A stretch of DNA of 64,000 nt from Gemmatimonadota bacterium (GTDB lineage: Bacteria > Gemmatimonadota > Gemmatimonadetes > Longimicrobiales > Gaopeijiaceae). The notes beneath the pieces were generated by a model. It was not told where the DNA came from. It made no database searches and worked only from the letters and a program-made list of their open reading frames with translations. The stretch covers positions 1-64,000 of the forward strand of contig JAJDTB010000062.1 in NCBI GenBank assembly GCA_022827345.1. The letters run 5' to 3'. Position numbers and translations under genes: made by a program. Shown here piece after piece: positions 4,257 to 57,326 of this stretch (its first letter is position 1; the number at the start of each line of letters is the position of its first letter).

Positions 4257-5450
4257 TCATCGAACCACCTCATACACCACCACATTCTCCACGTCCATGT
4301 CGTCCCTGAGCACGCCCAGCACGAGCCCTCCGGTCACGTCGAGGATGCGGAACCTGGGCGGAGTCTCGACCTGTCCCAGCCACTCCCCGTCCGGGGAAAT
4401 GACGGTGTACGGCGATCCCTCTTCCGGGTAGGCCGGCCGGTAGGAGGGGAGCCACAGGTTTCCGTCGGCGTCGGCGAAGGGGGAACCGAAGAGCGGCACC
4501 GGCTGGCCGATCATGTCGCGATACCGGGACATGTCTTCCTGGATTATCTCCTCGAGCCGGGCTTCGGATACTCCGTAGTTCATCCGGCCGATCATGCGGT
4601 TGTAGGACTCGCCGTGCTCCAGGAGTTCCTCGGTCAGCAGGTTGGGCCCGGGCCGCCAGCGCACGATCTGGGTTACCGTACCGTCCGGCAGACGCCAGGT
4701 GATCTCGGGCCTGTCGGACCTCGTTTGGACGAACCGCCCCGCAGCGACCGTGACCTCGCCGACGGGCCGGATGATCGGGCGCGTCTGCCCCGACCGCTGT
4801 CGCGGGACGTGGTCGTACGACGCGACCGTGTCCAGGGCGCCGGTTTCGGTATCGAACAGGGTCATGTGCCCGGCGAGCCACTCCTCCTCTATGTCGACCC
4901 AGGAACGGTAGGCGTACCGGTCCATCATCATCAGCTCACCGGATGAGCCGATTCCCGCCAGACCGAAATGGGCCGCCCGTGGCAGGCGCGCGGTGCGCGC
5001 GACCGAATCGCCGACGAATAGAGTGAGGCGAGATTGACGACGGTCAGGCACAAGGACGCTGTCCCGGCCCAGGACGAACAGCGCGTAGGGCTCGATGACT
5101 TCTCCCGGTCCCTCTCCAACCTTGGCGAGCACCTTGTGCGTCGTCCCGTCCGGACTCAGGACGACCACTTCGCTGTACCAATCGGCAACGACCGCGCTTC
5201 CGTCCGGGAAGAGCCGGCCGGCCTCGGCGAACTGGAAGATGTAGTCGGCCGGGCCGTCGCCGTGGCGGTAGCGGGGTTCTTCCGCGAGGGCGAAGGGGGG
5301 CTCGACGTCGGGGACGCCCGCGTACTCGACGATCCGCACGCCGGCGCTGTCCGAAATCCGGACCGGGATGTCGCGCGCGGATTCGGTGTCGCCACCGCAG
5401 GCGAGCAGGGCTGCTGACAGGATCAGAGGGAAGTGGCGTCGGGTTCGCAT
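4257..5450 (-). CDS. Secreted lipoprotein, six-bladed beta-propeller-like
   Basis: 397 residues. A lipoprotein signal with lipobox LLAC (Cys18) is followed by a repeat-rich body of the kind annotated as 6-bladed beta-propeller in Gemmatimonadota and Bacteroidota: FQFAEAGRLFPDGSAVVAD, then VGEGPGEVIEPYALFVLG, and late propeller strands such as SPFADADGNLWLPS. No catalytic residues are recognisable. The predicted location is anchored in a membrane facing the periplasm or outside. A second copy with an internal deletion lies at 7812-8519. The upstream 150 bp, including a hairpin at 5613-5636, is also shared between copies, so the whole unit was duplicated. The function is unknown; a binding or scaffold role is a guess. 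Confidence 0.75.
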   Translation of the reverse strand: MRTRRHFPLILSAALLACGGDTESARDIPVRISDSAGVRIVEYAGVPDVEPPFALAEEPRYRHGDGPADYIFQFAEAGRLFPDGSAVVADWYSEVVVLSPDGTTHKVLAKVGEGPGEVIEPYALFVLGRDSVLVPDRRQSRLTLFVGDSVARTARLPRAAHFGLAGIGSSGELMMMDRYAYRSWVDIEEEWLAGHMTLFDTETGALDTVASYDHVPRQRSGQTRPIIRPVGEVTVAAGRFVQTRSDRPEITWRLPDGTVTQIVRWRPGPNLLTEELLEHGESYNRMIGRMNYGVSEARLEEIIQEDMSRYRDMIGQPVPLFGSPFADADGNLWLPSYRPAYPEEGSPYTVISPDGEWLGQVETPPRFRILDVTGGLVLGVLRDDMDVENVVVYEVVR

Positions 5451-49782: not shown

Positions 49783-51576
49783 TTACCTCTTCTTCTTCGG
49801 CTTCTTCTTCTTCTTGGCGCGTTTGCTCTTCGGAGTCTCGGGCTCCGGCATCGGGGCAAAGAGGTCGAGCAGCCAGATCGCTTCCGTGAGGCACTGCGCG
49901 ACCTCGTTGGCCTGCCGGCGCAACTCCGTCCGGACGAACGGCAGCCGCTCCGACTCCGCTTCGACCAATTCCGGAAGCTCGTGCAGCTTCGCGAGCCTGG
50001 GAATCGGGACGCGCGGGGTGGCCGGGTCGTGCTCGAAGCGAGGTCTCTCCGAGTATCCCAGGGGCACCAGCACGCGGCCGAGCCTCAGCAGGAGGTCGTT
50101 GACGACTTCGGGCGGCAATGCACCCTCTTCGATCTTCGAATAGAGGTAGTCGAGCCTGAGAATGACGGCATCGAGGGCCTTTCGCACCGCACTCAGGTCG
50201 AACTTCTTGAAGGCCTTCGTTTCGTAGTCGGCGAGGGCCTCGTTCAGCTCCGCCGCGGTCTTGCGGAAGTCCAGCGGCAGAATCTCGGCGGTGAGGAACT
50301 CGCTGAGCGCAGTCAGGTAGATGCGCAGGTCACGCTCGAGGTTCGCGCGGTCGGCCACCTCGATTCGATCCCATTCCGTATGCCACGCGATGTTGCCGCC
50401 GCAGCCGCCGACAGGATAAAACCCCAGGCGTTCGCGCTCCTCCTCGGGGATGTTCGAGAGGAGCATGAAGAACGAACTGATGCCGAGCTGGTTGAAGGAG
50501 TAGTCTCCGGCCCGGAGGGGACGCTGGCGCCCTGGCTCGATCCCTGCCACGGACTCGATCGAGGAACGGCAGACATCCGCTGTCTCGGCCATCCAGGCGA
50601 CCTCGTCGTACCGGGTGGCCCGCCAGCAGCCAGGCGAGTCGATGTTGACCGCGGCGACGCAGCGACGGCGCAGGTCGAGCCCGAACTCGTCGGCATACCA
50701 GGTCGATCCCCCGTATCGCCCGGTCGAGTGCGCGGGCCACCAGGCCACGCGCAGCGACCGCCGCATTTCCTCGCGATGGGTGTGAAAGATGCGCGCGAGT
50801 TCCAGGAGAGTCGCGTCGCCGACCGCATTGTCGCCGATCCCGATGTCCCACGAATCGTAGTGTCCGTGGACCAGAACGAATTCCTCGCTTTCGCCCTCGA
50901 TCCGGGCCACCGGCACCGAGCAGGTGGACCACCCCTCCGCAAGCTCCGTATGAAGCTTGACCTGCTCTTCCCCGGCCTCGATCGCCTCGATCAGCCGGTC
51001 GCCGTCGGGCCTGTTGATCGCCACGATCGGGGTGGTCGGCGTCTGCCTGAGTTGCTCCTCGGTCGGAGCCCCCCATATGGAGGTACAGATCCCCCAGTGC
51101 ACGCGGCTGCCCGGGTTGATGTAGATCTGCCCGGCTGCCCCGGCCGCCTCGAAACGCGCCACCGACACCGGCATGGCGAGCCCCTCGGTCACCACGATCT
51201 TGCCCCGCAGATCCGGGATCTCGCCTTCGACCACCGACTTGAACAGGTCCGATCCGCCGCGGACGGTGGTGGCGGGCACATGGACCGGCTCCCCGGTCAG
51301 CCCCTTCGAGTCGGTCGAAACCGAAAACGAGGGCGGTTTTCCGGCCATCGCGGCCCCAGCGACCTCGACCGCGGCGCTGCGCGGGACGGAGAGGTACAGC
51401 TTCGGCTCGTGCAGGTCGTAAGGGATGTCCAGCGCATCGAGGCGCGAGACGATGAAGTGGGCTGCGGCCCGCTCGTCCGCCGAACCCGACTCGCGAACGA
51501 GGACCGCGAATCGTTCGATCAGACTCCAGCCCAGGTCGAAGGAGACGTCTCCGAGAACCGACTCGACCAGGCTCAT
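49783..51576 (-). CDS. M28-like peptidase with altered metal site
   Basis: 597 residues, no signal peptide. A PA-like insert (LRGKIVVTEGLAMPVSVARF) lies in the first third. M28 metal ligands are seen as H-x-D in LVHGHYDSWD, D in GDNAVGDATLLELA, D in NIDSPG and H in IAWHTEWD. The usual Glu-Glu pair is replaced: WWPAHSTGRYGGSTWYAD. Some related M28-type proteins carry this variant, so it may be inactive or use another base. The C-terminus ends in a lysine-rich tail (KSKRAKKKKKPKKKR). Confidence 0.75.
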   Translation of the reverse strand: MSLVESVLGDVSFDLGWSLIERFAVLVRESGSADERAAAHFIVSRLDALDIPYDLHEPKLYLSVPRSAAVEVAGAAMAGKPPSFSVSTDSKGLTGEPVHVPATTVRGGSDLFKSVVEGEIPDLRGKIVVTEGLAMPVSVARFEAAGAAGQIYINPGSRVHWGICTSIWGAPTEEQLRQTPTTPIVAINRPDGDRLIEAIEAGEEQVKLHTELAEGWSTCSVPVARIEGESEEFVLVHGHYDSWDIGIGDNAVGDATLLELARIFHTHREEMRRSLRVAWWPAHSTGRYGGSTWYADEFGLDLRRRCVAAVNIDSPGCWRATRYDEVAWMAETADVCRSSIESVAGIEPGRQRPLRAGDYSFNQLGISSFFMLLSNIPEEERERLGFYPVGGCGGNIAWHTEWDRIEVADRANLERDLRIYLTALSEFLTAEILPLDFRKTAAELNEALADYETKAFKKFDLSAVRKALDAVILRLDYLYSKIEEGALPPEVVNDLLLRLGRVLVPLGYSERPRFEHDPATPRVPIPRLAKLHELPELVEAESERLPFVRTELRRQANEVAQCLTEAIWLLDLFAPMPEPETPKSKRAKKKKKPKKKR

Positions 51577-51716
51577 GGCTCACACGTGGTGATTGGCGAC
51601 ATAGATCCTTCCAAATCCAGGATTTCAAGCGCTTTTCACTAATGTAACCACGGGCACAAGGCTCCCCGCATTCGGCCGGCAACCGTCCGAACGCAGCATG
51701 CCAAACGCGCTGGCAG

Positions 51717-52433
51717 CTACCAGTCGACCTTGTCCGGTTCCGGTCGATAGCGTGCGATTCCGTCGCGGGTCAGCCTGAAGGCAGCGGCCATCACCAATGC
51801 GCTCGACAGAAGAATGGCCGATGCCAGGATCGCGGGTCCCGAATCTCGAGCCACCAGATCGGTGACAACGTCCAGCGGACTACCGAACAACCGATCGAAT
51901 ACCCACAGGACTCCGAACAGCACGACAAATGGGACCAACAGGCCGATGCTGGCCAGTCGCGTCACCGTGTAGCGCATCGTCAGCCCGATAAGCAGCCAGG
52001 AAGCGGCGGACGAGCTGAACCAAACCAGAGGATAGGCAACGATCACGACCCGAAGCGCCGGGGTATCGAGCAGCGGCGGGAGCACGATGCCGCACGCGGC
52101 AGTCACGAAGATCGCGCCCAGGGCCGTCAACCCGCTGGCCGCCGCGCAGCGCGCCAACGCGAGACTCGGTGGAGTCGCCGGGAGACCGGCGAGGAACTCC
52201 ATCGTGCCGTCCAGCTTGTCCTTCAGGACATGCATCGCGCTCATGCCCACGAAGCTCAGCCCGACGGCGACCGCAATGAACCCCACGGCACTTGAATCGA
52301 AACCGGCCAGCGCAACCACACCGACCGCCGCGAGCGCCCCTCCCAGGGTGTGCAGCACCTGCTTGCGCACGCGTCGGAATTCCAGCCCCAACAGACTGCC
52401 GACGATACGACGCGGGGAGATGAGTCTATTCAT
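51717..52433 (-). CDS. ABC transporter permease of the peptide cluster
   Basis: 238 residues with six predicted membrane segments (TLGGALAAVGVVALAGF; VGFIAVAVGLSFVGMSAMHV; TALGAIFVTAACGIVLPPLL; LVPFVVLFGVLWVFDRLFG and others). The middle motif KDKLDGTMEFLAGLPATP is typical of ABC-2 type permeases. It overlaps the ATPase gene by 8 bp and is the last gene of the C39/small-peptide cluster. ABC-2 pairs in bacteriocin clusters often give immunity or export. Confidence 0.78.
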   Translation of the reverse strand: MNRLISPRRIVGSLLGLEFRRVRKQVLHTLGGALAAVGVVALAGFDSSAVGFIAVAVGLSFVGMSAMHVLKDKLDGTMEFLAGLPATPPSLALARCAAASGLTALGAIFVTAACGIVLPPLLDTPALRVVIVAYPLVWFSSSAASWLLIGLTMRYTVTRLASIGLLVPFVVLFGVLWVFDRLFGSPLDVVTDLVARDSGPAILASAILLSSALVMAAAFRLTRDGIARYRPEPDKVDW

Positions 52434-53163
52434 CTGTGGATCTCAGCAGGGTGTAGAGTTTCCTGGACATCGGCGTTGCGGGGTCGCGCGCGTCCACATC
52501 CGCAGCCGACATGTCGGCCACCAAGCGACCGTCCCTCAGGAGGACGACGCGATCGGCAAAGCGCTCGACATCCTCGAGGATATGGGTCGAGTAGAGGACA
52601 AGACGTTTGCCGCCGGCGGGAGCGGACTCGTTGATGACCTGCAGGAGTTCGCCACGCATCACGGGATCGATGGACGATGTGGGTTCGTCGAGGACGAGAA
52701 CGGGTGGACGGAATGCCTCGGCAGCGACGAGGGAGAGCTTGACGGCCATCCCCTTCGAGAGAGTTCCGACCCGGGAAAGGAGCGGCAGCTGCAGGCGCTC
52801 CGCGAGGTCGGCGGCGTGTGCATCATCCCAGGTGGGGTAGAAGTTCGACAGGAACCGCAGGTGTTCGCCCACGGTCAGCCACCCGTACCCCAGCAGGCGC
52901 TCCGGCAGGAATCCGATACTTGCCCGGATCGCCGGCAGATTCGATCGGACTTCCGTCCCCCCCACGGTGACGGTACCTCGATAGTCGTTCATCCTCCCGG
53001 CCATGGCCTTCAGGAGGGTGCTCTTCCCCGCTCCGTTCGCACCGACCAGTGCGACCCGCTCTCCCGGGTGGAGATCCAGACTCAGGGGACCAAGGGTGAA
53101 GTTGGGGTATTCGACCCTGAGGTCCCGCACACTGACCTCCGGCCTCGTTTCAGCCGGTTTCAC
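52426..53163 (-). CDS. ABC transporter ATPase of the peptide cluster
   Basis: 245 residues from GTG 53163 (GTGA overlap with the upstream stop). Walker A is VGANGAGKST, the signature is LSKGMAVKLSL (degenerate LSGGQ), and Walker B is VLVLDEPTSSID, then STHILEDVER. The 25-kDa CcmA/BcrA-type ATPase works with the downstream permease. Its likely job is self-protection against, or release of, the peptides encoded upstream; inference from context. Confidence 0.88.
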   Translation of the reverse strand: MKPAETRPEVSVRDLRVEYPNFTLGPLSLDLHPGERVALVGANGAGKSTLLKAMAGRMNDYRGTVTVGGTEVRSNLPAIRASIGFLPERLLGYGWLTVGEHLRFLSNFYPTWDDAHAADLAERLQLPLLSRVGTLSKGMAVKLSLVAAEAFRPPVLVLDEPTSSIDPVMRGELLQVINESAPAGGKRLVLYSTHILEDVERFADRVVLLRDGRLVADMSAADVDARDPATPMSRKLYTLLRSTDE

Positions 53164-53837
53164 AGCGTCACCTGGGCCCGAACGGCCGCGAACGCCAGTA
53201 CGGCTGCCCACATGAGGCAGGCCAGACCGACCGCTCTCGCCCGGCTGAATCCGAAGCAGTGGCGGAACGCTGCGGTCAGGAAAAGGAACCACGCCAGGTG
53301 GAACAGCGTGACGGACTGCGCCACCGCCCACAGAACCGGCATGGTGGGAGGCACGATCGCCCCCAGGCCCAGGGGGAGCTGCAAGTCCTGAGGCGACGAT
53401 ACGACGCCCCCCGTGGTGAGATGCACCAAAAGAACAACTGCCACACCCTGGAACATCAGAATCGCCTCTCCGTACAGTAGCACCGAGACGAGCGGCCTTA
53501 TCCGGCTGTCGACACCGCCGAGGGTCAGGGCGGCCCACCCAACCGCAGTCAGGAGCAGGGCCTTGAGCAACATCAGAAGCGGCGCGATCAGCGCGGCAAA
53601 CACGAGCACGAGCTGGACGGTCGACGATGCACCAGGCTGTTCACCGCCCAGGGCGCGCAGGAGCAGCGGCCGCGAAGCGACCGCAGCCACGACCGAGAAC
53701 ACCCAGCCCGCGACCAGCGGAGGGAAGACGGGCTCATGCCTCCTGATGTCATCAAGGCCCGGTACCAGAAGGGCGAGGAAGCGCCTGATCCGGCCCCAGC
53801 CCGTGGGCCGCGGCGGGTCGATCACCATTTCATTCAT
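53160..53837 (-). CDS. YIP1-like membrane protein
   Basis: 225 residues with about five to six membrane segments (VAGWVFSVVAAVASRPLLL; LVLVFAALIAPLLMLLKALL; AVGLACLMWAAVLAFAAVRA). The pattern of a cytoplasmic N-terminus followed by a five-helix bundle resembles Yip1-domain proteins. It is ATGA-coupled to the thioredoxin-like gene and GTGA-coupled to the ATPase. YIP1-like genes occur next to ABC ATPases in many bacteria; the function is unknown. Confidence 0.65.
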   Translation of the reverse strand: MNEMVIDPPRPTGWGRIRRFLALLVPGLDDIRRHEPVFPPLVAGWVFSVVAAVASRPLLLRALGGEQPGASSTVQLVLVFAALIAPLLMLLKALLLTAVGWAALTLGGVDSRIRPLVSVLLYGEAILMFQGVAVVLLVHLTTGGVVSSPQDLQLPLGLGAIVPPTMPVLWAVAQSVTLFHLAWFLFLTAAFRHCFGFSRARAVGLACLMWAAVLAFAAVRAQVTL

Positions 53838-54376
53838 TGTTCTGATTCATCTCCGGTAATGGTCTGTATGTTGTTGATCAGCCTCCGCCTGCTGCTCTGT
53901 CCGACCTCGACGATGCGGACCGTATCCGTGGCGTCGATCCAGAAGGCGGCGGGCACCGCGTTGACTCCCAGCATTCGTCCTGCGCTGCCGTCCGGATCCT
54001 GCACCGTTCGCGCGCGGAGAGGCTCGGGCACCCATTGTGCACCCTCCATTTCCGAGGTGGGTGACGCGACCACCCAGACCCTCTCCGCAAAACCATGCTC
54101 GGGAGCCAGGGCTTCCCACTGATCCAGTTCGGCCCGGCAGTACACGCACTCACGATCCACGTAGAGAAGGACCGCCGGAGACCCTTTCATTTCCTCCAGG
54201 CTCCCGGGGCCTCCCCCGACCTGTACAACGGTCAGGGGAGGCAACGGCCAGGGAGGCTGCCGCGGGCCGGAACCGGCCCGATTCCCATTCGCCAGGAGCA
54301 CCGGCAGCAGCGCGGCCGCGGCGGCGCACGCAGCCACAAGCACGGCCGCAACCCTGCGCGGAACTGCTACGTGCAT
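53834..54376 (-). CDS. Membrane-anchored thioredoxin-fold protein
   Basis: 180 residues from ATG 54376. One N-terminal membrane segment (AAVLVAACAAAAALLPVLLA) is followed by a redoxin domain with C77-x2-C80 (VLLYVDRECVYCRAELDQW), RVWVVASPTSEMEGAQWV and the cis-Pro-type loop LGVNAVPAAFWID. In this cluster, which encodes several two- and four-cysteine peptides, it is probably the oxidase or isomerase for their disulfides. The start lies 10 bp inside the upstream peptide gene. Confidence 0.75.
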   Translation of the reverse strand: MHVAVPRRVAAVLVAACAAAAALLPVLLANGNRAGSGPRQPPWPLPPLTVVQVGGGPGSLEEMKGSPAVLLYVDRECVYCRAELDQWEALAPEHGFAERVWVVASPTSEMEGAQWVPEPLRARTVQDPDGSAGRMLGVNAVPAAFWIDATDTVRIVEVGQSSRRRLINNIQTITGDESEQ

Positions 54377-54636
54377 GCCAGCACGCGCGCGTAGAAAGTA
54401 AGGCCGGGATAGGCGGGACCGCCCGCGACACAATCGAGCCACGTGATGACCCGGACCGCCGACCCGACGAATTCGAGCAACTGGCCGCCGGAGGGATCGC
54501 TCGCGACGGTCTGCCGATGCACCTCCTGGACGGTGGCCTCGCGGGGACGGGCCGTCGGCGGTGCAAGAACGGCTGCGCATGACACTGCCACTGCCAGCCG
54601 CATGGCAAGGGCTCGGTGAAAGATCGCTGTGGGCAT
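54367..54636 (-). CDS. Secreted two-cysteine peptide (precursor-like)
   Basis: 89 residues from ATG 54636. A signal-like segment (MRLAVAVSCAAVLAPP) leads to a hydrophilic stretch and then SDPSGGQLLEFVGSAVRVIT, WLDCVAGGPAYPGLTFYARV and LACT. The GGQ and the pair of cysteines 18 residues apart recall the next two peptides (GGQ, cysteines 20 apart). Processing after GG by the C39 peptidase would release about 43 residues. The family is unknown. Confidence 0.5.
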   Translation of the reverse strand: MPTAIFHRALAMRLAVAVSCAAVLAPPTARPREATVQEVHRQTVASDPSGGQLLEFVGSAVRVITWLDCVAGGPAYPGLTFYARVLACT

Positions 54637-54649
54637 CGTCACACCGCCG

Positions 54650-54937
54650 CTAGCCAAGGGTGCCGAGGAGCACGCCGCCGCAAACGGGAACGGCGAAGAT
54701 GAGCGCGAGCGGCATCACAAAGGAGAGGCCGGCGAGTCCAATGCAGAGATAGACATCCTCCGCCGCCTGGCCTCCCACGACATGCGTCGCGTCGACGACC
54801 TGAATCGACTCGGCGACGTGATCGGTGTCGCCCCACGCCGAACCGCCATGTCCCAGCAGCGAAGCGTTGATGATGGACAGAGCTGCCAGGGTTGCCATGG
54901 CAGAACGGATTTTCGTTGATCCTGAGAATTTCTTCAT
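54650..54937 (-). CDS. Secreted bacteriocin-like peptide, GGQ family member 1
   Basis: 95 residues from ATG 54937. The N-terminus is signal-like (SAMATLAALSIINASLLGHG); a linker ends in VVDATHVVGG; then QAAEDVYLCIGLAGLSFVMP and LALIFAVPVCGGVLLGTLG. The two cysteines are 20 residues apart in a very hydrophobic, Gly-rich tail. It is a clear paralogue of 54943-55215 (A-L-S-x-x-N-A-x-x-L-G-H and VVGGQ shared). GG before Q is a candidate C39 cleavage site, giving a 39-residue peptide. Confidence 0.65.
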   Translation of the reverse strand: MKKFSGSTKIRSAMATLAALSIINASLLGHGGSAWGDTDHVAESIQVVDATHVVGGQAAEDVYLCIGLAGLSFVMPLALIFAVPVCGGVLLGTLG

Positions 54938-54942
54938 TTTGG

Positions 54943-55215
54943 TTACCCCCAAGTCCGTACTACGGCCGAGTAGCACGACATTGCTGCAAATACTCCCATG
55001 AACGGAAAGAAGTGGGCGCCGACGCCCGAAACGACGCAGGTCACCCAGTCAATTCCCTGGCCTCCGACCACATCGGGGCCAGTTCGTGTTTCTGCCTGGT
55101 ATGCGACGGGTGCGCCAGTACCCGTCCCCTGCATCTCGTGTCCGAGGTACAGGGCGTTCGACAGCGAGAGCGCCGCTACCAGGCACAGCACTCGCCGATT
55201 CAATCTTGAAGTCAT
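54943..55215 (-). CDS. Secreted bacteriocin-like peptide, GGQ family member 2
   Basis: 90 residues from ATG 55215, with AGGAGG 4 bp upstream. Signal-like segment VLCLVAALSLSNALYLGHEM, linker ending TGPDVVGG, then QGIDWVTCVVSGVGAHFFPF and MGVFAAMSCYSAVVRTWG. The cysteines are 20 residues apart, as in the previous peptide. Cleavage after GG would leave 38 residues. The gene ends 5 bp before the start of the next gene on the same strand. Confidence 0.68.
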   Translation of the reverse strand: MTSRLNRRVLCLVAALSLSNALYLGHEMQGTGTGAPVAYQAETRTGPDVVGGQGIDWVTCVVSGVGAHFFPFMGVFAAMSCYSAVVRTWG

Positions 55216-55259
55216 GGTTCCTCCTGAGTTGTGTTGCTCGTCACGACGGATCCGGCCGC

Positions 55260-55559
55260 CTATGAAAAGCCAACGGTGCATGCACCGACGCAGGCTCCGA
55301 GTAGGGCGCCGTTTGCGCCCGCGAGCACAAGAAGACCGATCACCGACGACCCGCCCCCCACGATTGCGCCGGCCGCGCACCCCGCGCAGATGAGCTTGGC
55401 CAACCAGGGACCCGTTCCGACGACCGCTTCCGTCACAGGCGTGGCCGGCGGGGTTGCCGAAGCGGAGCCTGCTGCGACCTGACCGCCGATGGCGGCGGCC
55501 GGAACGGCGATCAGCGCGAGAATACCCGCAATGGTTCGCACTACTGACTGCTTTTTCAT
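55260..55559 (-). CDS. Secreted four-cysteine Gly/Ala-rich peptide 1
   Basis: 99 residues from ATG 55559. Signal peptide (AGILALIAVPAAAIGGQVAA), linker to VTEAVVGTGPW, then LAKLICAGCAAGAIVGGGSS and VLAGANGALLGACVGACTVG. The cysteines are C-x2-C, 28 residues, C-x3-C, the same plan as 55610-55894. The hydrophobic glycine-rich core is typical of pore-forming bacteriocins; halocin C8 is a distant analogue in style only. A 15-bp tandem duplication (GAAGGAACGAACAAT twice) copies the ribosome-binding site and start, so an alternative ATG at 55574 exists. Confidence 0.65.
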   Translation of the reverse strand: MKKQSVVRTIAGILALIAVPAAAIGGQVAAGSASATPPATPVTEAVVGTGPWLAKLICAGCAAGAIVGGGSSVIGLLVLAGANGALLGACVGACTVGFS

Positions 55560-55609
55560 TGTTCGTTCCTTCATTGTTCGTTCCTTCTCCCTGTTGCAGG
55601 GGTCGATGA

Positions 55610-55894
55610 TCACAGGTTTGCACACGCTGCTATGCATCCTGCGAGGGCCAGCGAAGACCCGGGAACCGACGCTGCCGCAACGACGGCACCCCAGCCCCCG
55701 GCGGCGATACCGATCCCGGCCACGAGACATCCCACGCAGGCTGCAAACGTCTTCCAGCCAGTCCCGGTGACGTCCTCTGCCGCTGCCGGTGGTTCGCCGG
55801 TCCCGAAGGATGCGCCCGGCTGTGCTGCGCTGTGCATCCCCAGGACGGCGAGACACAATCCGAGGGTAAGAACCCTCATGTTAGATCGAAGCAT
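55610..55894 (-). CDS. Secreted four-cysteine Gly/Ala-rich peptide 2
   Basis: 94 residues from ATG 55894 with GGAGG 5 bp upstream. Signal peptide (VLTLGLCLAVLGMHSAAQPG), then EDVTGTGWKTFAACVGCLVA, a Gly/Ala-rich core and SSLALAGCIAACANL. The cysteine plan is C-x2-C, 30 residues, C-x3-C, matching 55260-55559, and both share G-T-G-x-W/K before the first cysteine. The start lies 14 bp inside the C39 peptidase gene, so it is the first peptide of the operon. Confidence 0.68.
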   Translation of the reverse strand: MLRSNMRVLTLGLCLAVLGMHSAAQPGASFGTGEPPAAAEDVTGTGWKTFAACVGCLVAGIGIAAGGWGAVVAAASVPGSSLALAGCIAACANL

Positions 55895-56552
55895 TTTTCC
55901 TCCAATGATGGTGCTTGAGCCCATGGCGCAGTTCGCCACGGGAGATCCGCTCCTGTCCGGCCAGCAGCACGGCTTCGCCGGACCAGATGGATCTGAAGTC
56001 CTGTTCGCTGATCGTGTAGCGACCCACGCGCGGGTCGATGACCGTGATGGTCCCGGTGGGACTCAGGTCCGTCACTGTGACGAAATGATTGCGGTTGACC
56101 CATGCGATGAACGGTCTCGGAGTGGCGGCGACCTGCTCCGGGGCGATGTGCTCCAGGGTCATCGGCAGCCCGAAGACCGCGCCGGCCCGAATGAGCCCGC
56201 TGGCTCTGGTCCCGACCGGGCCGGTGCCCGCAAGCGTGGCCAGCGAGTCCAGCGATGGGGCATCGATGCCGACGGCGTGCAACAGGTTCGCCAGGGCCGC
56301 GGGCCCGCAGTCGTTGAGGGTGGCCTGCAGGACCACGCCTTCCGCTCCGAGATACGAGCCCCCGAGATCGGTCAACTCCTGCCGGGCGGCGATTCTGCCC
56401 ATGCGCGGCAGTTCCGTGACTGCGAACGCCGCGATTCCGATGGTGGCCGGAACCAGCACCAGTACCGCCAGCGCACCCAGTCGACGGACTGCGGAAGGGT
56501 GCCGGAAGAACGCCTTGCGAGGATTTGTGGAGCCGGACCGACGTGCGATCAT
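55881..56552 (-). CDS. Membrane-anchored C39-family peptidase
   Basis: 223 residues from ATG 56552 (TTG 56591 is an in-frame alternative). One N-terminal membrane segment (ALAVLVLVPATIGIAAFAVT) is followed by a papain-like C39 domain: Q76 and C82 in LQATLNDCGPAALANLL, H156 in AWVNRNHFVTV and D173 in TVIDPRVGRYT. C39 peptidases cut bacteriocin leaders after double glycine; usually they are fused to an ABC exporter, whereas this one is free-standing and faces the periplasm. As first gene of the cluster it is the likely processing enzyme for the downstream peptides. Confidence 0.8.
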   Translation of the reverse strand: MIARRSGSTNPRKAFFRHPSAVRRLGALAVLVLVPATIGIAAFAVTELPRMGRIAARQELTDLGGSYLGAEGVVLQATLNDCGPAALANLLHAVGIDAPSLDSLATLAGTGPVGTRASGLIRAGAVFGLPMTLEHIAPEQVAATPRPFIAWVNRNHFVTVTDLSPTGTITVIDPRVGRYTISEQDFRSIWSGEAVLLAGQERISRGELRHGLKHHHWRKNASI

Positions 56553-56705
56553 GCCGAGGATTCCGTGATTGTGAGTCGTCTCTGCGATCAAGCGAGAGAG
56601 ACTCTACAGGGTCCTCAGGGGCGTTTCCATAGCTGGATGGGACAGATTTCCGGCCGCCCGCAATCCACCGGCGAGGGCGGCCCGGACGCCGGGTGCCTCG
56701 GAGGC

Positions 56706-57326
56706 CTACAAGGTCATCAGCACCGCCAGGATGTCCTCGTTGGTGGGCCGCACGCGGTAGTCGACCTCGACGAAGCTGTATCGGACGACCCCCTCCCTGT
56801 CGATGACGTAGGTCGCCGGGTGCGGCAGCGGCCTGTTCGGGGGTGCATCCTCGTTGAAGAGGCCGTAGCGGTCGATCACCCGGTGGTCCGGATCCGACAG
56901 CATGATAAAGTCGGGCGTCACGCCGTCATCAGCAGCGACTCGGTCGATCATCAGCTGCATGCCTTCGCGGTCGTCCACCGACACCGTCACGATCTCCGTG
57001 TCGTCCTGCAGTTGGTCGGGAAGAAGGGCTCTCAGCTCCACGAGCTGACTGGCGCAGTACGGTCACCAGTGGCCGCGGTAGAAGACCAGGACGACGTTCT
57101 TCTCGCCCCGGAAGCCGGCGAGGTCCACCGCCCCGTGCTCGAAGGATTCGAGGGTGAAGAGCGGCGCTTCAGTGCCAATCGCCACACGCCCGATATCGGT
57201 GGGGGGCAGGTCGTGGCCGTCCACGGGACCCAGCGTCTGGGCGGCGGCGGGCGCGGATGCGAAGAGGCCGGCAAGCAGCAGCGGCAGGATGCCGGCGCGG
57301 ACCGGCGATCTTGGAGAGCGTTTCAT
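56706..57326 (-). CDS. Peroxiredoxin-like protein with predicted selenocysteine (UxxC)
   Basis: 206 residues if the TGA at 57063-57065 is read as selenocysteine (residue 88). Before it: a signal peptide (AGILPLLLAGLFASAPAAAQ), then APLFTLESFEHGAVDLAGFR and VLVFYRGHW. After it, in the same frame: PYCASQLVELRALLPDQLQ, then TEIVTVSVDDREGMQLMIDR and LSDPDHRVIDRYGLFNEDAP. Relatives have C-P-Y-C at this place, so the TGA replaces the first catalytic Cys. A hairpin right after the TGA (57032-57048) fits a bacterial SECIS. A nonsense mutation is the alternative, but the frame beyond is intact and well conserved in pattern. Predicted periplasmic thiol peroxidase or oxidoreductase. Confidence 0.75.
57032..57048 (-). 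promoter_or_regulatory. Candidate bacterial SECIS element
   Basis: In the mRNA of the peroxiredoxin-like gene, U-CAGCUC pairs with GAGCUG-A (7 bp) around a three-base loop GUG. The loop begins 21 nt after the UGA and its first base is G, which agrees with the general bacterial SECIS model (loop 16-37 nt downstream with G in the first two loop positions). Confidence 0.55.

Follow-up and report, generated by a model that had tools for sequence, protein, structure and literature searches.

The window analysed here is a stretch of 64,000 nucleotides from a Gemmatimonadota genome (NCBI GenBank assembly GCA_022827345.1, contig JAJDTB010000062.1, positions 1 to 64,000), in which a single tight operon of ten genes is located on the minus strand, from position 56552 to 51717. 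Neighbouring genes lie -14 to +50 bases apart, and the gene order is as follows: a peptidase of family C39, five small open reading frames (ORFs) encoding the peptides P1 to P5, a CxxC thioredoxin-fold protein, a Yip1-like protein, an ATP-binding cassette (ABC) ATPase and an ABC-2 type permease (Table 1). An initial annotation of this DNA had placed ten co-directional, closely packed genes here, and its coordinates and gene content were exact on re-checking. The C39 peptidase, the CxxC thioredoxin-fold protein, the YIP1-like protein and the ABC pair that it named were all recovered, the Yip1-like protein and the permease only through Pfam matches below threshold. The best NCBIfam match of the ABC ATPase was PmtA, a phenol-soluble modulin exporter (E=4.9e-37, below the PmtA cut-off). 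No RNA family was detected between 51500 and 57500 using Rfam.

Table 1. Features of the C39 peptidase operon and its surroundings (aa, amino acids; TM, transmembrane)
Feature	Position	Strand	Evidence or remark
Free-standing C39 peptidase, 223 aa, N-terminal TM anchor at about residues 29-45, then peptidase domain	55881..56552	-	Pfam PF03412, E=6.7e-21
Peptide P1 precursor, 94 aa: predicted signal, linker, VTGTG site, four-Cys hydrophobic core CxxC ... CxxxC	55610..55894	-	
Peptide P2 precursor, 99 aa, VVGTG site, four-Cys core; P1 paralogue	55260..55559	-	
Peptide P3 precursor, 90 aa, VVGGQ site, two-Cys core	54943..55215	-	Same leader and VVGGQ pattern at other loci
Peptide P4 precursor, 95 aa, VVGGQ site, two-Cys core	54650..54937	-	tblastn match to a peptide of locus L027
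Peptide P5 precursor, 89 aa (78 aa from internal start), SGGQ site, two-Cys core	54367..54636	-	Weakest of the five
Membrane-anchored thioredoxin-fold protein, CVYC active site, cis-Pro motif V-P	53834..54376	-	Pfam AhpC-TSA, 1.1e-7
Yip1-like multi-pass membrane protein, candidate immunity or accessory protein	53160..53837	-	Pfam Yip1, E=0.006, below cut-off; position kept in 16 related loci
ABC ATPase, GTG start (53163) overlapping the Yip1-like stop	52426..53163	-	Pfam ABC_tran, 3.7e-26
ABC-2 type permease	51717..52433	-	ABC2_membrane_5, E=0.0014, below cut-off; position kept in 15 related loci
Whole exchangeable cassette, absent from the closest relative, G009	51663..56570	.	blastn of flanks
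Upstream element, 74 bases, common to cluster and replacement cassettes	56571..56644	-	97% identity over 72 bases in L109; alignment with 8 related upstream regions

Homologous clusters in Gemmatimonadota, which the initial annotation had suggested looking for, were found in eighteen further genomes from four families. A minority of 98 relatives had the C39 protein; its identity was 56-63% in six congeneric species and lower in the remainder. The same gene order was observed in 19 loci including the window (families f1, f4, f6 and f7), six of which came from a phylum-wide search. Two of these loci are truncated: the contig of L032 stops before the thioredoxin-fold gene, and that of L094 begins inside the C39 gene. 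Using tblastn with the window proteins, the Yip1-like gene was undetected in L092 and the permease in L038 and L094, which may reflect divergence. When 84,980 species genomes were scanned using one short C39 pattern, which does not make for an exhaustive search, strong matches came solely from Gemmatimonadota, and the C39 matches among those listed from plasmid records were solely of the exporter type. More distant C39 matches, in a methanogen, Ruegeria and others (L051, L052 and L054-L058), were set aside, as they carried neither these peptides nor the rest of the cluster and most were beside or fused to ABC transporters. Flags for a TAG codon inside the C39 genes of the same genus were likewise discounted, because the proteins are slightly shorter and the matches ran on past their normal ends.

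None of the small ORFs matched a Pfam or NCBIfam family, and no bacteriocin model in curated Pfam and NCBIfam was hit up to E=1. We searched the 19 loci using a filter that demanded a basic then hydrophobic N-terminus, a G-x-G/Q-like site and two or more Cys in a hydrophobic core. The sense strand yielded 58 such peptides, in 18 of the 19 loci, and the antisense strand yielded 0; the sole locus without a match, L034, has a P1 core lacking an intact in-frame leader, plus a long P2. In pairwise comparisons of three close relatives, the ratio of non-synonymous to synonymous substitution (dN/dS) was 0.23-0.69 for the peptides and 0.19-0.27 for C39, rather than the value near 1 that the initial annotation had taken to speak against genuine small ORFs. 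The strand difference and these ratios together indicate that the small ORFs are real genes, and the peptides are under constraint yet fast-evolving. The fifth ORF, which had been described as weaker, fits the series in having a predicted signal, an SGGQ site and two core Cys; its orthology is the least certain of the five, and no clear orthologue was found among the related loci.

Conservation was unevenly distributed over the peptides. V, G, G and four Cys were invariant in an alignment of 12 P1 homologues, four Cys, likewise arranged as CxxC ... CxxxC, were invariant in 13 P2 homologues, and a profile comparison of P1 with P2 scored them as homologous (97% probability). Ten loci outside the home genus (L035-L038 and L089-L094) encode exactly two peptides, which correspond to P1 and P2, and loci of the home genus encode 4-6. 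The invariant unit is a P1 and P2 pair of paralogous four-Cys peptides, the other peptides being lineage-specific extras. The five-peptide cluster of the initial annotation was thereby upheld as a conserved cluster, with its invariant core narrowed to the pair. P1 also follows the protease: among 395 Gemmatimonadota genomes, free C39 was found in 18 (E below 1e-27; longer, mostly fused C39 proteins began at 9.6e-24), and an independent search of the same genomes with a P1 profile matched all 18 of these, giving three weak matches among the other 377.

The leaders share one layout, a basic stretch followed by a hydrophobic segment and a low-complexity linker, about 36-65 residues in total. The basic and hydrophobic N-termini support, as a sequence-level prediction, the Sec-type signals that had been ascribed to the precursors, and the leaders depart from the double-glycine (GG) type, which is short, amphipathic and without an export signal. 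Site residues were tallied separately, since a few peptides had the site wrongly assigned by the filter. A V-x-G-x-(G/Q) motif or close variant, the predicted cleavage site, precedes the core in 55 of the 58 precursors, with V, I or L at position -4 in 52 of these 55 and G at position -2 in all, the latter being fixed by the search pattern. The cores comprise 35-54 residues and usually contain four Cys. In the AlphaFold model of P1, a helix (residues 2-22) and a disordered linker precede helices at 47-65, 68-75 and 80-93; the predicted local distance difference test (pLDDT) score of the core is about 63-74, and a helical hairpin is a plausible fold for it. As a control, we examined locus L156, from another Gemmatimonadota family, which has a canonical fused C39-ABC transporter. 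Its peptides have 58-59 residues and a leader of about 15 residues that ends in VGG, with no hydrophobic start, so ordinary double-glycine peptides exist in the phylum and those of the present cluster differ from them in the leader. The P1 profile had no significant similarity to a canonical L156 GG peptide (2.5% probability). The short-leader GG peptides of L156 (MKTLTMQQQHEIVGGDWGF... and MQTMSVAEQSRLVGGDF..., within 4589-5000) adjoin the transporter gene and have no convincing Pfam match.

The C39 protein possesses the papain-like fold, catalytic Cys, His and Asp and oxyanion Gln that define its family, and Q76, C82, H156 and D173 were invariant in 12 homologues. Its AlphaFold model (pLDDT, 83.5) was nearest, among solved folds, to the C39 domains of PCAT1, ComA and LahT. 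In peptidase-containing ABC transporters (PCATs, also AMS), C39 is fused to a TM and ATPase exporter, whereas the 223-aa protein of the window stands alone and the ABC-2 type ATPase and permease are encoded separately. Since the side preceding the anchor is more positive than the following side in 11 of 12 homologues, an N-in/C-out topology is predicted, which would place the catalytic domain in the periplasm. An N-terminal anchor is present in the thioredoxin-fold protein as well; both Cys of its CxxC motif and the V-P motif were invariant in 9 homologues, with His or Tyr often preceding the second Cys, and VKOR is encoded in the genome. These results bear out both the free, singly anchored and apparently periplasmic C39 peptidase and the CxxC partner of the initial annotation.

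The cluster behaves as an exchangeable cassette. It is flanked by a peptidase-like gene (49783-51576) on one side, and by a peroxiredoxin-like and then an asparagine synthase-like gene on the other. In G009, blastn identity of the flanks to the window is 95.4% up to 51662 and 97% from 56571, with an unrelated 2.8 kb in between (L109), so that the cassette is clearly delimited. In four sister species (L113-L116) the site is empty, the flanks being present with no cluster between them. L110 and L112 contain, at the matching place, a stretch resembling the first 57 C39 residues (42% identity, E of about 0.2-0.3), which we regard with modest confidence as a C39 remnant. Among the cluster-bearing genomes compared, the flanking genes are 67-85% identical and the permease only 27-39%. 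The cassette is absent, replaced or decayed in sister species, a behaviour that would be typical of bacteriocin loci. The upstream element (Table 1), of which the genome has one perfect copy, is probably a shared promoter or regulatory element, possibly a locus-specific promoter or recombination handle; a second near-copy on contig C8 was discarded because it sits in housekeeping genes.

Other contents were observed at the same chromosomal site. A different cassette, consisting of genes for a beta-propeller-like protein, an ABC ATPase and a permease without C39, is present at L118 (1800-6600), L119 (7400-12500) and L120 (1700-5900), and that of L118 additionally encodes exported small Cys-rich proteins. 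A third alternative is a beta-propeller-like gene (L109, 333-3133; L110, 2825-3859), preceded in L109 by an extra short ORF. Genes for exported small proteins and accompanying ABC genes seem to have a hotspot here. In a peroxiredoxin/thioredoxin-like gene next to the cassette (56706-57326, minus strand), a TGA codon takes the catalytic position in frame (FYRGHW-TGA-PYC), both in the window and in 17 related loci. Because of this codon and because the genome encodes SelA, the gene very likely encodes a selenoprotein and is split in two by ordinary ORF calling.

We favour, at somewhat better than even odds, the explanation that the operon encodes a class II-like bacteriocin system of two peptides, whose maturation pathway is exported. 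Peptide pairing, Cys conservation, fast evolution and cassette exchange argue for it, and, as in class IIb bacteriocins, two distinct peptides lie side by side, P1 and P2 being adjacent and the only peptides in 10 loci. The label first given to the cluster was bacteriocin/RiPP (ribosomally synthesized and post-translationally modified peptide). Its RiPP half was dropped, since none of the ten genes encodes a tailoring enzyme besides the thiol-disulfide protein, and class II-like bacteriocin fits better. According to this proposal, the precursors would cross the inner membrane by Sec, and the anchored periplasmic C39 would cut them at V-x-G-x-(G/Q), freeing hydrophobic cores some 35-54 residues long. 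Disulfides stapling the helical core would be formed or corrected by the CxxC protein, itself membrane-anchored and recharged through the oxidative folding pathway of the cell (VKOR). The essential pair, P1 and P2, would act together on target membranes, with further peptides widening the set, and the Yip1-like protein and ABC pair would shield the producer by removing peptide from the producer membrane. The more specific claim, that Sec export precedes a glycine-site cut by an anchored periplasmic C39 served by a dedicated disulfide enzyme, and that the peptides form an undescribed two-peptide family of disulfide-stapled helical hairpins, specific to Gemmatimonadota as far as searched, we hold tentatively and put slightly short of even.

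Several points weigh against the bacteriocin proposal. In the comparison with Pfam and NCBIfam the peptides had no sequence similarity to any known bacteriocin family, and the cluster itself encodes no outer-membrane exporter. Of the 55 precursors, just 28 have the usual G, A or S at position -1 of the site; R, Q or T often takes its place, so the exact cut position is unsure. Signal peptides were called from hydrophobicity and charge alone, and the thioredoxin-fold protein may act as an oxidase, reductase or isomerase.

The same genes might instead serve a secreted peptide signal or developmental system, in which Sec export, C39 cleavage and oxidation yield peptides sensed by kin rather than toxins. 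C39 peptidases of the ComA family also mature quorum-sensing peptides, and killing by the present peptides is our inference only; however, the peptides, as many as six per locus, are diverse, hydrophobic and mostly of the four-Cys kind, the cluster lacks a receptor kinase or regulator, the ABC pair is efflux-like and the cassette is rapidly exchanged. Toxin and immunity are a better match for these features, and we judge a signalling role unlikely. Leader structure and topology bear on another reading, in which C39 and the ABC pair are a fragmented cytoplasmic peptidase-containing transporter and the hydrophobic N-terminus is merely an unusual leader. The C39 fold is that of PCATs, the site is GG-like in part and the ABC pair is almost always present, but the anchor charge predicts a periplasmic C39 domain, the ATPase belongs to the ABC-2 exporter type and is paired with a distinct permease instead of forming a PCAT-type fusion, and canonical leaders in the phylum have no hydrophobic segment, which leaves a split exporter rather improbable. 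We give still less credence to a Fap-like surface or fibre system, where C39 processing licenses structural subunits for export and extracellular assembly. FapD is a documented periplasmic C39 peptidase required for amyloid export (PMC5557850), but the cluster has neither a FapF-like outer-membrane pore nor Q/N-rich repeats, its cores have just about 35-54 residues with up to four Cys, and it includes an ABC pair and a thioredoxin-fold gene.

No earlier report of the cluster was found in the literature searched, which covered few subscription journals, and as far as searched the cluster is undescribed; we place it, as a variant, among the double-glycine bacteriocin-type systems and not in a category of its own. 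Nearly all C39 peptidases known are cytoplasmic exporter domains that cut and export bacteriocins in one step, FapD being the one clear periplasmic case, and a review of RiPP leader proteases presents C39 enzymes as transporter domains (PMC10885120). A predicted periplasmic C39 adjoining obvious candidate substrates makes the specificity and role of exported C39 peptidases directly testable. The cluster is also a candidate competition system for a phylum whose known genomes come mostly from uncultured bacteria, many of them associated with sponges, and clusters of this kind would often escape genome-mining tools that look for short GG leaders or fused transporters.

Class IIb double-glycine bacteriocins with PCAT/AMS transporters (LahT, PCAT1, ComA C39) resemble the cluster in their small, hydrophobic, Gly-rich cores and paired peptides, in the C39 fold and catalytic residues, and in having dedicated membrane or ABC protection genes, a role that those of the cluster would share; their GG site has a partial counterpart in the V-x-G-x-(G/Q) motif. 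The cluster differs in that its peptidase is free, membrane-anchored and predicted to be periplasmic instead of fused to the exporter, and in its leaders with Sec-type signal and linker, the four conserved Cys of the P1 and P2 cores and the lack of a match to known families. The Blp system of Streptococcus thermophilus is, unlike the present cluster, Gram-positive, and it relies on a fused C39 exporter and cytoplasmic cleavage. Within the Blp cluster, thermophilin 9 needs the thiol-disulfide oxidase BlpG for activity, and several small GG-leader peptides adjoin the oxidase gene, much as small peptides adjoin a CxxC gene here (thermophilin 9 as cited in PMC11286413). Microcin PDI is a Gram-negative GG-leader peptide that, like P1 and P2, contains four Cys, and two of those in the microcin are needed for activity; unlike P1 and P2, it has an 18-residue leader and a fused C39-ABC exporter, McpB, and no dedicated disulfide enzyme was found to be needed in the producer (PMC5311971). 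FapD is active in the Pseudomonas periplasm and essential for the export of functional amyloid, its cleavage target not being established (PMC5557850). It serves Q/N-rich amyloid export via FapF and is unaccompanied by a peptide pair, disulfide enzyme or ABC pair, but it shares with the C39 peptidase of the cluster, as predicted here, export to the periplasm and separation from any ABC transporter.

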